A stretch of DNA of 64,000 bases, from assembly GCA_016196065.1 (NCBI GenBank), contig JACPYL010000010.1, forward strand, positions 1,488,001 through 1,552,000, read 5' to 3'. A program made the position numbers and the translations under genes. Positions 814-6,240 of this stretch are shown in pieces (positions within the stretch are counted from its first letter, which is position 1; every line of letters begins with the position of its first letter). Under the pieces are notes generated by a model, which saw nothing but the letters and a program-made list of their open reading frames with translations, was not told where the DNA came from and searched no databases. This stretch comes from Acidobacteriota bacterium. Lineage in GTDB: Bacteria > Acidobacteriota > Terriglobia > Terriglobales > Acidobacteriaceae.

Positions 814-1638
814 CTACCGCAGCCAGTCTTCCAATTCAATGCCGCTGTCCGTCTTTTCGTCACGATACTTGACGATCACCGGGGTGTAGAGAGAAAGGTT
901 CCACTCTGAGCCTTTGCCTTTTTTGACTGCGCGTGATCCGGGCACAACCACGGCGTTCTCCGGCACTTCGAGCGGATGCTCGGGTGTCGCGCGATAGACT
1001 TTTCCGCGGACCAAATCGTAGATCGGCGTCGAGCGCGTGAGAATCGTTCCCGCCCCCAGCACTGCGCGTGTCCGCACCAGTGTGCCTTCGTACACACCGC
1101 AGTTTCCGCCAACCAGAACGTCGTCTTCGATGATCACCGGTGCGGCGTTGACTGGTTCCAGAACGCCACCAATCTGAGCGGCAGCACTGATGTGAACGCG
1201 TTTCCCGATCTGCGCGCAGGAACCGACCAACGCATGAGAATCGACCATCGTGCCTTCGTCCACATTAGCTCCGACATTGATGAACATCGGAGGCATGCAG
1301 ATCACAGACGGTGCTACATACGCTCCCTCGCGAATCGTCGATCCGCCGGGCACGACGCGCACTCGATCGGCCACGGAGAAATGTCGAGCAGGGAAGGTGT
1401 CCTTGTCGACGAAGGAGAAGACGCTGCCGTCCGACATTTCTTTCATTTCGCCCAGGCGGAAGCCCAGCAGGATGCCCTGTTTGACCCAGGCATTGACGAT
1501 CCATTGACCGTCAATTTTCTCGGCAGCGCGGATGTCGCCCCTTGTCAGGCAAGCGCGGAAATCAAGAAAAGTACGGCGCGCGGACTCGCGGTTGGGAATA
1601 GTCGCAAGAGCTGCCAATTTTTCTACGTCCGATTTCAA
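814..1638 (-). CDS. dapD: 2,3,4,5-tetrahydropyridine-2,6-dicarboxylate N-succinyltransferase
   Basis: Succinyl-CoA-dependent acyltransferase of the succinylase branch of diaminopimelate/lysine synthesis, cytosolic. The 274 residues match the usual DapD length. The N-terminal helical domain includes GQWIVNAWVKQGILLGFRL. The central left-handed beta-helix shows hexapeptide-repeat character (ICMPPMFINVGANVDEGT, then SHALVGSCAQIGKRVHISA), and the C-terminal part has GSRAVKKGKGSEWNLSLY. The only in-frame start giving a full N-terminus is TTG at 1638; an upstream ATG near 1656 is out of frame and runs quickly into a stop. No strong ribosome site is visible. It lies about 140 bases downstream of dapA and ends the lysine block. 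dapE, dapF and lysA are not in this window. Confidence 0.95.
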   Translation of the reverse strand: MKSDVEKLAALATIPNRESARRTFLDFRACLTRGDIRAAEKIDGQWIVNAWVKQGILLGFRLGEMKEMSDGSVFSFVDKDTFPARHFSVADRVRVVPGGSTIREGAYVAPSVICMPPMFINVGANVDEGTMVDSHALVGSCAQIGKRVHISAAAQIGGVLEPVNAAPVIIEDDVLVGGNCGVYEGTLVRTRAVLGAGTILTRSTPIYDLVRGKVYRATPEHPLEVPENAVVVPGSRAVKKGKGSEWNLSLYTPVIVKYRDEKTDSGIELEDWLR

Positions 1639-1778: not shown

Positions 1779-2909
1779 TTATGCCACGCACTTGCACTCG
1801 CTGCGAATCAGAACTCCTTCCATCTGATGAGTCGCCGCGCGGGCTTCGACGGCATTGCCATACGGACCATGCCAGCGCGCGTGATTCGCGTCATGACCTG
1901 CCGGGCGTCCTTTTCCGGCATTACATTGTCCACAGTTGGCGCGATGCAACACCGCTTTATGTGGACCCGCAGCCCAATTCTCGTACACGAAGTATTCGCT
2001 TGGAGCGACTGCGACCGGAGTCGCTTTGGCGACCAGGCCCACATCGGAAGCTACCTTCTGAAGTTTGGAGCGCGTATCGCGTCGCATGGGCAGAAGCGGC
2101 AGGCGATATATTTCTTCGACTTTGCCCATCATCGCCAGCACGGCCTTCACGGGCAGAGGATTCGATTCGATGAAGTTTGCCTGCATGAGCGCTAGATATT
2201 TGCGATGAATCTTGCGAGCAGTATCCCAATCATTCGCCAGGGCAGCCCGCGTCATCTCCGCCATCTCTTTTGGGATCTCATTCGAAGCCACGGAAATAAT
2301 TCCGACGCCGCCGAGCGCAATCACCGGTAGCGTGATGGCATCGTCTCCAGAGAACACGAGAAACGATTCTGGAACAGCATTCAACACGTCCGCAATCTGC
2401 GACATGTTTCCGCTGGCTTCCTTCACGGCTGCAACATTTGGTACTTCTGCCAGTCGCGCCAGTGTCGCCGGTTCGAGATTCGCTCCTGTACGTCCGGGCA
2501 CGTTGTACAACACCAGCGGCTTGTCGACCGCCTCGGCGATCGCGCGGAAATGGCGGTATTGTCCTTCCTGCGTAGGCTTGTTGTAGTAAGGAGAGGCCGT
2601 CAGGATCGCATCGACGCCCGGTCGGGCTGCTACTTCCTTCGCCTTCGCAACCGCCTCCTGCGTGGAGTTGGAGGTTGCGCCAGCGACGATCGGTACGCGC
2701 CCCGCCACCACTTCGATGGTGACGTCAATGACGCGCAGCCATTCATCGTGCGTCAGAGTTGGAGTCTCACCAGTTGTGCCGCAGGGAATGAGAAAATCGA
2801 TGCCCGAATCCACCTGCCACGCAACCAGGTTGCGCAATGAGGTTTCATCGACCGAGCCGTCCGGATGGAACGGCGTGACGAGAGCGGTACCGCAGCCTCG
2901 TAGTTGCAT
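1779..2909 (-). CDS. dapA: 4-hydroxy-tetrahydrodipicolinate synthase fused to a C-terminal Cys-rich domain
   Basis: Condenses pyruvate with aspartate semialdehyde, the first committed step of diaminopimelate/lysine synthesis. I chose ATG 2909 (start MQLRGCGTALVTPF), where the family begins; the frame is open further upstream but that part is not DapA-like. The TIM-barrel shows the pyruvate-binding PCGTTGETPTL motif, the catalytic Tyr in LYNVPGRTGANL and the Schiff-base Lys in VAAVKEASGN. The barrel and its C-terminal helices end near residue 295. About 75 extra residues then follow without a frame break: residues 304-376 contain EYFVYENW, Cys326-x-x-Cys329-Asn, RWHGPYG and Cys372-x-Cys374. 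This looks like a small metal-binding module that I recall from stand-alone hypothetical proteins. Ordinary DapA lacks it. The gene lies between dapB and dapD. Confidence 0.95.
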   Translation of the reverse strand: MQLRGCGTALVTPFHPDGSVDETSLRNLVAWQVDSGIDFLIPCGTTGETPTLTHDEWLRVIDVTIEVVAGRVPIVAGATSNSTQEAVAKAKEVAARPGVDAILTASPYYNKPTQEGQYRHFRAIAEAVDKPLVLYNVPGRTGANLEPATLARLAEVPNVAAVKEASGNMSQIADVLNAVPESFLVFSGDDAITLPVIALGGVGIISVASNEIPKEMAEMTRAALANDWDTARKIHRKYLALMQANFIESNPLPVKAVLAMMGKVEEIYRLPLLPMRRDTRSKLQKVASDVGLVAKATPVAVAPSEYFVYENWAAGPHKAVLHRANCGQCNAGKGRPAGHDANHARWHGPYGNAVEARAATHQMEGVLIRSECKCVA

Positions 2910-2989: not shown

Positions 2990-3670
2990 CTAGAGTTGCT
3001 TCCAGATATCGCGAAACTCGAAAAAGCCCTGCTTGCCGGCCAGCCACTCCGCGCCGCGAACCGCTCCTTCGGCAAATCCACGCCGCGATTTGCTGTCGTG
3101 ACACAGATAGATGCGGTCGTTCTCGGAGTTGAATACGACTTCGTGCATCCCCATCACTTCGCCCTCGCGGAAAGAAGTGATTTCCAATTCCTGTCCGCCG
3201 GAGTCGCGGATGATCTTCTGCAGAGTAATCGCCGTTCCCGAAGGCGCATCTTTCTTTTGTGAATGATGGCGTTCGAAAATCTGTCCAGAATATTCAAACT
3301 GCAGGGCAGGTGCCGACGCCTGAACAATCTCAAAGAAAAGATTCATGCCAATCGAAAAATTCGATCCATACAAAATACCTGTCTTCGCGGTCACAACCTT
3401 GTCGCGAAGCAGCGGGACGGAGTCGTACCATCCCGTCGTCCCGATAACCAGGTGCCTGCCGGCCCGAATGCAGGCCTCTGCATTGGCTAGCACAGCGGCG
3501 GGGGTTGTGAAATCAATGACGCCGTCAACATCAGAAAGATAGGCCGGAGTGAGCGCACTGGCATTCCGATTCTCGGCTGCGCCCAGGACGCGGACGTGAT
3601 GTCGCCGGGCACGCGCCACTTCGGCAACGATGGATCCGGTCTTGCCACGGCCTAGAACGAGCAGATTCAT
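2990..3670 (-). CDS. dapB: 4-hydroxy-tetrahydrodipicolinate reductase, short form
   Basis: NAD(P)H-dependent reductase that follows DapA in diaminopimelate synthesis. The frame is open upstream, but the family-like N-terminus MNLLVLGRGKTGS starts at ATG 3670, giving 226 residues, shorter than the roughly 270 of the E. coli enzyme. The nucleotide-binding loop reads LGRGKTG. DFTTPAAV and GTTGW line the cofactor pocket, and FERHHSQKKDAPSGTA carries the catalytic His-His and Lys plus the substrate-binding DAPSGTA. The C-terminal part (HEVVFNSENDRIYLCHDSKSR) is also family-like. It sits 76 bases downstream of lysC and 80 bases upstream of dapA, consistent with one operon. Confidence 0.93.
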   Translation of the reverse strand: MNLLVLGRGKTGSIVAEVARARRHHVRVLGAAENRNASALTPAYLSDVDGVIDFTTPAAVLANAEACIRAGRHLVIGTTGWYDSVPLLRDKVVTAKTGILYGSNFSIGMNLFFEIVQASAPALQFEYSGQIFERHHSQKKDAPSGTAITLQKIIRDSGGQELEITSFREGEVMGMHEVVFNSENDRIYLCHDSKSRRGFAEGAVRGAEWLAGKQGFFEFRDIWKQL

Positions 3671-3746
3671 GAGAAAGCCGCTTTCATTACAGGGCCAGAT
3701 GATTCGTTTTCTACGCGAACTCTGTGTCGTCGGCGGTGAAAAGATT

Positions 3747-5120
3747 CTATGCGAATACTTCGGGGTCTGCTTGTGCGAAGAACTCCTTATGCAACCGTCG
3801 AACGACTTCAGTGGCATCGTCTTCTTCAATCACAAACGTCAGGTTGATTTCGGATGCACCCTGGGAAATCATTCGGATCTTCACGTCTTCCAGTATGCCG
3901 AACACTTTTGCGGCGATTCCCGGAGTGTCGCGCAGGCTTTCGCCGACCAGGCAGACGATTGCTTTGCGGCCTTCATATTTCACGTCGGCCAATTTGGCAA
4001 GATCGGCAGCTAGCGCGGGGATTGCTTCATTCGTCTCCGCGGTCACCGAAACGCTCACTTCGGATGTCGACACCACATCGACCGCTACCATGTGCCGATC
4101 GAACACTTCGAAAATTGACTTCAGATATCCATGCACGAGCAGCCGGCGCGGTGCCGCCACGTCGACGATCGTGATCTTCTTCTTGAGAGCGATTGCCTTG
4201 AAAATATTTGAGCAGCGGGGAGCGCGCGCTGTGATCTTGGTTCCTTCGCATGTCGGATTCTGCGAGTTCAGAACATACACGGCGATATTCTTCTGAATGG
4301 CGGGCAGCACTGTGGCGGGATGGAGAACTTTCGCGCCAAAGTATGCGAGTTCAGCGGCTTCGTCGAAGCTGATGACCTTGATCCGCCGTGCATCCGGACA
4401 CAGGCGCGGATCCGTCGTCATCATGCCGTCCACGTCGGTCCAGATTTCAATGCGGGCAGCGTCGAGCCCGGCACCAAAGATCGCAGCAGAGAAGTCCGAA
4501 CCGCCACGGCCGATGGTGGTTGTAATCCCGGCTCGGTTAGAGCCGATGAAGCCGCCCATGACTGGAACTTTCCCGGACTCCAAAAGAGGCTTCACTTTTT
4601 TCTGCAGGCGTTCATTGGTCTCGTCAAACTGAGGGACGGCCTTCGTATAACTGGAATCGGTAAGCAGGCACTGCCGTGAGTCGACGTGCACTCCGGGCAA
4701 CCCCCGGGCAACGAAAGCGGCGGCCACGATTTTGCTGGAGAGCATTTCGCCGAACGACGCAACCGAATCGTATGTGCGTGGCGTGATCTCGCCGACCGCA
4801 CCAATGCCGCGCAACAGTTCGTCCAGATCCTCGAAGTCGGCACCGAGTCCGCTGTGGAACTCCGTGAACAACGCGGTGCCCAGCAATTCTCCAGCAGTTT
4901 CGTAGTGGCGCTCGCGTAGTGCGCGCGACATTTTCAGAGCGGTCTTACGATCGCCACTGCCGGCCGCTTTGCCCATCGCAAGCAGGGCATCGGTCACCTT
5001 AGCCATCGCGCTTACGACTACGACCGGACGATCTGCCAACCGGCCTTGCACAATCTGGCCAACGCGATCAATCGCCTTAGCGTCCTGTACGGAGGTCCCG
5101 CCAAATTTCATTACGATCAT
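3747..5120 (-). CDS. lysC: Aspartate kinase
   Basis: ATP-dependent phosphorylation of L-aspartate, the entry step to lysine, threonine and methionine synthesis. The 457 residues suit a monofunctional LysC. Visible motifs: N-terminal KFGGTSV, the amino-acid kinase segment GGFIGSNRAGITTTIGRGGS, and EIWTDVDGMMTTDPR with the metal/ATP-binding acidic residues. The C-terminal third (from about residue 305) is a pair of ACT domains, the usual site of feedback inhibition; which amino acid controls it cannot be read. Start ATG 5120; a second ATG three codons later is possible. TGAGGA lies about 12 bases upstream. The gene lies 67 bases downstream of asd. Confidence 0.96.
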   Translation of the reverse strand: MIVMKFGGTSVQDAKAIDRVGQIVQGRLADRPVVVVSAMAKVTDALLAMGKAAGSGDRKTALKMSRALRERHYETAGELLGTALFTEFHSGLGADFEDLDELLRGIGAVGEITPRTYDSVASFGEMLSSKIVAAAFVARGLPGVHVDSRQCLLTDSSYTKAVPQFDETNERLQKKVKPLLESGKVPVMGGFIGSNRAGITTTIGRGGSDFSAAIFGAGLDAARIEIWTDVDGMMTTDPRLCPDARRIKVISFDEAAELAYFGAKVLHPATVLPAIQKNIAVYVLNSQNPTCEGTKITARAPRCSNIFKAIALKKKITIVDVAAPRRLLVHGYLKSIFEVFDRHMVAVDVVSTSEVSVSVTAETNEAIPALAADLAKLADVKYEGRKAIVCLVGESLRDTPGIAAKVFGILEDVKIRMISQGASEINLTFVIEEDDATEVVRRLHKEFFAQADPEVFA

Positions 5121-5187: not shown

Positions 5188-6240
5188 TCACCCGAAATAC
5201 CCTTTCGCTTTCAGCAACTCGGCGTTGAGTAGTGCTGCACCGGCAGCGCCGCGAATCGTGTTGTGCGAGAGCAGCGTAAATTTCCAGTCCAGCACATTGC
5301 ATTTGCGCAAGCGTCCAACCGAAGTCGTCATGCCGCCGCCGGAATCCACGTCCAGCCGGGGCTGCGGACGGTCCACGCCCTGCAGATAGATGACCGGTTG
5401 CTCGGGAGCGCTCGGCAGACGAAGGCGTTGCGGCTCAGCGCGAAAATCATTCCATGCCGCAATGATTTCTTCCGGCTGGGCTTTCGTTTTCAGGCGAATC
5501 GAAACTGATTCCGTGTGCCCATCTTCCACCGCAACTCGATTGCACTGCGCGCTCATCGCGAAGGGCGCGGGAACAATGCCATTCCCGTTGAGCTTTCCAA
5601 GTAGCTTCTGCGTTTCCTCTTCCATCTTTTCTTCTTCATTCGAGATGTAAGGAATCACATTGCCGAGGATGTCGAGCGAAGCCACGCCGGGATATCCCGC
5701 ACCGCTGACCGCTTGCATGGTCACGGCCATGACCGTCTCCAGACCAAACTTCTGATGCAACGGGGCCAGAGCCAGGACCAATCCAATTGCCGAACAATTG
5801 GGATTCGTTACCGCGAACCCGCCACTCTTTCGCCGCCAGCCTTGCACTTCAATAAGAGGAATGTGATCGGCGTTGACCTCGGGAATCACGAGTGGGACGT
5901 CTGACTGCATCCGCAACGCGCTGGAGTTCGAGACAACCGCGCAACCTGCTGCCGCAAACGCCGGCTCCATCTCCTTGGCGATGGCCGAATCGAGCGCCGC
6001 AAAGATAATCTTGGGCGCGCCCTCTGGCGTGGCCGGGGACACTGTCATCTGAGCGATGCGTTCCGGAATCGCGGTTTTCAAACGCCACCGCGCCGCCTGC
6101 ACGTAGGGCTTGCCTTCCGAGCGGTCCGAAGCCGCCAACCACGAAACTTCAAACCACGGGTGATGCTCCAGCAACTGGATAAAGCGCTGCCCGACGATGC
6201 CCGTGGCACCGAGAATTCCTACAGATAGTTTGTTGGACAT
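5188..6240 (-). CDS. asd: Aspartate-semialdehyde dehydrogenase
   Basis: Reduces aspartyl phosphate to aspartate semialdehyde with NADPH, linking LysC to DapA. It has 350 residues. The N-terminal Rossmann motif is GILGATGIVGQRF, and the catalytic Cys lies in NPNCSAIG. The sequence VTMQAVSGAGYPGV and the acidic EEEKMEEET segment resemble the archaeal/fungal-type enzyme more than the E. coli type. It appears to be the first gene of the minus-strand lysine block: an AT-rich stretch with a TATAAA (complement of 6255-6260) lies just upstream, a possible -10 element, but I see no convincing -35. Confidence 0.95.
   Translation of the reverse strand: MSNKLSVGILGATGIVGQRFIQLLEHHPWFEVSWLAASDRSEGKPYVQAARWRLKTAIPERIAQMTVSPATPEGAPKIIFAALDSAIAKEMEPAFAAAGCAVVSNSSALRMQSDVPLVIPEVNADHIPLIEVQGWRRKSGGFAVTNPNCSAIGLVLALAPLHQKFGLETVMAVTMQAVSGAGYPGVASLDILGNVIPYISNEEEKMEEETQKLLGKLNGNGIVPAPFAMSAQCNRVAVEDGHTESVSIRLKTKAQPEEIIAAWNDFRAEPQRLRLPSAPEQPVIYLQGVDRPQPRLDVDSGGGMTTSVGRLRKCNVLDWKFTLLSHNTIRGAAGAALLNAELLKAKGYFG

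Follow-up and report, generated by a model that had tools for sequence, protein, structure and literature searches.

The stretch of DNA considered here, a window of 64,000 nucleotides from an Acidobacteriota bacterium (family Acidobacteriaceae; contig JACPYL010000010.1, positions 1,488,001 to 1,552,000), carries on its minus strand a dapA gene (1779..2909, stop codon included) whose product, 4-hydroxy-tetrahydrodipicolinate synthase, bears an extra domain at its C-terminus. DapA stands at the start of lysine and cell-wall synthesis and is usually a tetramer, and enzymes of this kind are regarded as plain barrels.

The reading frame, MQLRGCGTALVTPF...DVGLVAKATPVAVAPSEYFVYENW...SECKCVA, starts at Met1, placed at 2909, and continues for 376 residues to a stop at 1779-1781, and the stretch that joins barrel to tail is free of stops and frame breaks. 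This bears out the original prediction that the DapA frame runs without interruption into a Cys-rich tail, and the numbering that it gave to the cysteines at 326, 329, 372, and 374 holds with this start. The extra C-terminal domain also stands, with limits narrower than the residues 296-376 first assigned to it. Three parts can be told apart: a complete TIM-barrel (residues 1-291; 2037..2909), a variable Ala/Pro-rich linker (about residues 292-305; 1995..2036), and the domain proper (residues 306-376; 1782..1994), which holds the candidate metal ligands His322, Cys326, Cys329, Cys372, and Cys374.

The barrel scores 340.7 bits with TIGR00674, against a cut-off of 206.15, over profile positions 4-284 of 286, i.e., an equivalog score over its whole length, and PF00701 covers it at positions 2-287 of 289; it is therefore complete without the tail. 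Since the source genome gave a single tail match and a single close DapA match (E ≤ 1e-60, distant barrel paralogues falling outside this search), the gene looks like the main DapA of the organism.

The pathway context of DapA is also present, as asd, lysC, dapB, dapA, and dapD form a row on the minus strand. Directly upstream and in the same direction lies dapB (2990..3715, start not fixed; TIGR00036, 138.4 bits, cut-off 122), preceded by the aspartokinase gene lysC (3747..5120; NF006570, a model for the lysine-sensitive aspartokinase 3, 522.6 bits, cut-off 455) and by asd, for aspartate-semialdehyde dehydrogenase (5188..6240; TIGR00978, 437 bits, cut-off 301.2). Directly downstream is dapD, for tetrahydrodipicolinate N-succinyltransferase (814..1638, start not fixed; NF008808, 313 bits, cut-off 204, scanned as 817-1665). 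Beside dapD, a minus-strand frame that crosses the window edge (3-863) resembles a lipoprotein-type signal with repeats behind it.

Retention of the fusion and selection on the tail

The retention of the fusion by related genomes, a check set beforehand, was followed in 101 relatives of the source genome, 61 of them from the family of the window and 24 from its genus. Tail matches at E ≤ 0.01 occurred in 39 relatives; four were weak and were set aside, and the 35 strong ones (E ≤ 1e-20) all fell within the family, i.e., in 35 of its 61 sampled genomes. All but one of these 35 tails could be read on DapA, the remaining one (G014) being divided between contigs. Thirty were read as loci (L001-L030), 28 of them in a single open frame and two (L003 and L004) with a frame broken inside the barrel, and in two further genomes (G036 and G047) DapA and tail aligned over their full length with zero stops. 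Two other DapA proteins (G027 and G034) have the linker replaced by about 100 residues of long low-complexity sequence. Within the genus, the tail was present in 22 of the 24 genomes, and the other two gave zero DapA matches.

A second collection, whose records are in part the same genomes, yielded 46 tail loci, all but one from Acidobacteriota records, with 45 placed at a DapA barrel and 42 of these 45 in a single open frame. Breaks inside the barrel were met in a few copies from metagenome-assembled genomes (L003/L032, L004, L069, and L074). Beyond the first sample, a match was found in 37 of 200 genomes of the wider order and, with a stricter and narrower profile, in 5 of 297 of the phylum. 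Weak matches in G048, G052, G072, G076, the second row of G013, and G579, and further ones in G1115, G1244, G1594, G1600, G1618, and G1524, were not taken as real; G065 gave a partial match that ends in C-x2-C.

Among 71 distinct coding sequences, the median pairwise ratio of nonsynonymous to synonymous substitution rates (dN/dS) was 0.065 for the barrel, 0.41 for the linker (residues 292-304), and 0.098 for the tail, ratios which are rough because dS is near saturation (median about 1.4), so that the order of the three parts is safer than their values. The fusion is thus more than chance: it is read in many genomes, and its tail changes only slightly faster than the barrel. As to its history, a quick unconstrained tree of the barrels requires two changes in tail presence; a tree constrained to group the tails together scored better than the free one and was not rejected (p = 0.829 in the approximately unbiased test). 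Two origins of the tail in DapA are therefore not required, and a single gain is plausible.

A small Cys/His domain on unrelated proteins

The five candidate ligands are conserved across 82 distinct DapA tails. When the count is widened to 122 distinct sequences of the domain and positions are numbered within it, His17 and Cys21 are found in all 122, Cys24 and Cys69 in 120 each, and Cys67 in 121, the exception having His. Other residues of the tail are conserved as well, among them Glu, Trp, Gly, and a WHGP motif. Modeled alone with AlphaFold2, the tail gives a confident independent fold (predicted local distance difference test score of 89.5), and in the full-length model it sits behind a linker of low confidence (residues 289-302). 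The zinc-binding appendage of the original prediction is therefore plausible, given the conserved His/Cys pattern and the small independent fold, features from which we infer the metal.

The tail had no credible match in Pfam, NCBIfam, PHROGs, or the PDB sequences; phmmer rows against the PDB at E values of 0.26 and 0.41 were taken as chance, and so were the Pfam rows Fer2_2 (E 0.016) and DUF6233 (E 0.049), which lie below cut-offs and concern one stand-alone relative. Zero of the 47 rows of a BFVD search reached E ≤ 0.001. Searches of the literature that is open access in PubMed Central gave nothing on the tail domain or on the DapA fusion. DapA itself is a known enzyme, and it is the fusion architecture and the domain family that are nameless in the libraries searched.

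Two profiles were used to follow the domain outside DapA: A5, which included members of the DapA-tail, stand-alone, and ATP synthase groups, and A2, built without ATP synthase sequences. With matches down to E 2e-28, they indicate that the DapA tail, a set of stand-alone proteins, and the head of certain ATP synthase beta subunits are homologous, and A2 found the ATP synthase beta domain at 1.7e-12 despite holding no sequence of that group. The likeness to stand-alone bacterial proteins, stated in the original prediction, is thereby supported; of the two contrary outcomes named with it, a stop or frameshift separating tail from barrel and a tail without relatives, neither occurred.

The stand-alone copies (L075, L142, L180, L181, L188, L189, L190, and L082, the last on a viral contig) are roughly 70-85 residues long from their likely start, and their existence shows that the domain works without DapA. 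One of them (L181:2969-3223, minus strand) lies in a genome, G034, that also has the DapA fusion. Another relative of this type (L085, L192:2987-3187, minus strand) has TGA at the Trp position of YENW, so that either the gene is broken or the stop is recoded. A protein of about 290 residues (L185) has the domain at its N-terminus, followed by a hydrophobic stretch, and two IS1-like transposases (L143:1438-2619 and L144:1435-2796, both on the minus strand) have it at their C-terminus.

The fusion to F1 ATP synthase beta was seen at L186:2619-4412 (minus strand), where the domain is N-terminal and stands before a Lys/Ala/Pro-rich low-complexity linker, and TIGR01039 covers residues 132-594 of 598. 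The genes run atpA, atpG, and fused atpD, the last starting 15 bases past atpG. Matches occurred in 47 of 200 relatives of this genome, and 29 newly fetched loci comprised 28 such fusions (L239-L262 and L264-L267) and one transposase, so that the fusion has been read in 29 genomes, L186 included. Ten further rows from these relatives, for which lengths only were taken, have frames of 580-684 residues. The ATP synthase fusions belong to a lineage of Pseudomonadota, at a guess within the Alphaproteobacteria. In that phylum the domain is infrequent, three profile searches finding it in 3 of 274 genomes (one weak), 7 of 398, and 7 of 337 (two weak).

Phage records held zero matches to the domain, and the viral contigs gave only the copy already mentioned, a third query returning zero. 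Two plasmid records have it: a Mesorhizobium plasmid with a complete match that is not annotated in its table, and a Bradyrhizobium plasmid in which the frame is broken. The latter copy (L083:3998-4138) is absent from the gene table of the plasmid and has a tyrosine recombinase a few genes away.

Role of the tail and comparison with known systems

We read the protein as an ordinary DapA carrying a domain of about 70 residues that is self-contained, probably binds zinc, and hangs on a short flexible linker; the domain is most likely a docking module, and we give this reading a probability of about one half. Catalysis would belong to the barrel, the fold of which would not require the tail. The tail would fold alone around a single metal ion, with His322-x3-Cys326 and Cys372-x-Cys374 as the putative ligand set and Cys329 as a fifth and dispensable candidate. 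If DapA is the usual tetramer, it would display four tails, each of which may dock a protein or a nucleic acid in trans as its partner, thereby placing or controlling the enzyme. That the module is tethered is suggested by the long low-complexity linkers of the two DapA proteins and of the ATP synthase beta fusions.

Several results weigh against this reading. The tail is lacking in 24 of the 59 DapA-bearing genomes of the family (DapA was found in 93 of the 101 relatives), all 24 proteins ending at 293-309 residues, so the pathway does not in general depend on the tail; seven DapA proteins from outside the family end at 293-305 residues. Five stand-alone loci inspected by eye had no neighbor in common, and the near saturation of dS, already mentioned, leaves the dN/dS ratios rough. 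Half of the barrel is of low confidence in the full-length model, made from a shallow alignment, from which tail-barrel contacts cannot be judged, and Foldseek gave zero matches at E ≤ 0.001.

Other explanations have been weighed against the docking module. The tail might be a regulatory zinc or redox switch, such that metal loss or oxidation of its cysteines alters DapA activity or lysine inhibition; the five conserved Cys/His candidates would suit it, as would the position of the enzyme at a control point, encoded in a lysine operon whose aspartokinase fits the lysine-sensitive model. We consider this unlikely, because related domains occur on ATP synthase beta, on transposases, and as stand-alone proteins, none with lysine control, and variable linkers, with lengths between 13 and about 100 residues, do not suggest the stiff allosteric coupling that a switch acting inside the enzyme would need. 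The same row of pathway genes is what favors a scaffold, in which the tail would tie DapA to DapB, DapD, or LysC and help to channel unstable intermediates; here the domains on non-pathway proteins, together with the tailless relatives, weigh against it, and we rank it below both the switch and a third proposal, less probable than the switch, namely that the tail binds DNA or RNA and gives DapA a second role or an address at the nucleoid or ribosome.

A passive appendage, i.e., a zinc store or a solubility or stability tag with no partner, would agree with the occurrence of the domain on unrelated housekeeping proteins and with the lack of a common gene context. The many conserved residues that are not metal ligands would be needless in a pure metal store, and we hold this explanation to be the least probable of the functional ones. 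An artefact, whether a frameshift, a missed stop, or an assembly join, could point to the few barrels with broken frames. It has been ruled out, with next to no probability left to it, by the uninterrupted frame in the window and at 42 of the 46 loci of the second collection, and by strong purifying selection on the conserved fusion.

A broader reading, which we offer tentatively and would not rate as high as even, is that one small, portable zinc module has been plugged independently into the C-terminus of DapA in one Acidobacteriota clade and, in a lineage of Pseudomonadota, into the N-terminus of F1 ATP synthase beta. It would then have stayed strongly constrained in both hosts because it subjects them to a common form of control, dependent on zinc, redox state, or nucleic acid, or gives them a common cellular address. 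An extra domain conserved across a clade of soil Acidobacteria implies that something beyond catalysis matters for DapA there, and the relative of this domain on ATP synthase beta widens the question, with one small module on two central enzymes.

Among known systems, the zinc domain of N-Ada (PF02805; 1u8b) was suggested as kin by the ligand spacing and by a single structure row, but the profiles gave this no support, though a weak kinship may exist. Neither the tail nor six relatives matched Ada_Zn_binding in Pfam, and an hhalign comparison of the tail with Ada zinc domains, in which the Ada alignment was narrow (26 sequences, effective sequence number of the template 2.2), gave a probability of 0.2 and a score of 9.1, not above shuffles (the best values in 100 column shuffles were 3.9 and 15.7). 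A further difference is that all 122 sequences of the domain have His at the presumed place of the methyl-accepting Cys of Ada. The tail resembles the stand-alone Cys-rich proteins, which share H-x3-C-x2-C ... C-x(1,2)-C and the YEN and WHGP motifs, L188 being identical to the window tail at 39 of 69 positions and L191 (i.e., the L075 protein) at 36 of 69; they differ in being unfused, and several end in C-x2-C instead of C-x-C, one in His-x-Cys. The ATP synthase beta head is homologous to the tail, has the same ligands, and is likewise tethered by low-complexity sequence to a housekeeping enzyme, whereas it is N-terminal, ends in C-x2-C, and is identical at 18-23 of 66 positions (12 sequences compared). 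Finally, the window protein resembles known DapA (TIGR00674, PF00701) in its complete barrel above the equivalog cut-off and in its row with asd, lysC, dapB, and dapD, and departs from it by adding, past the normal end, a linker and a Cys/His domain of about 70 residues.
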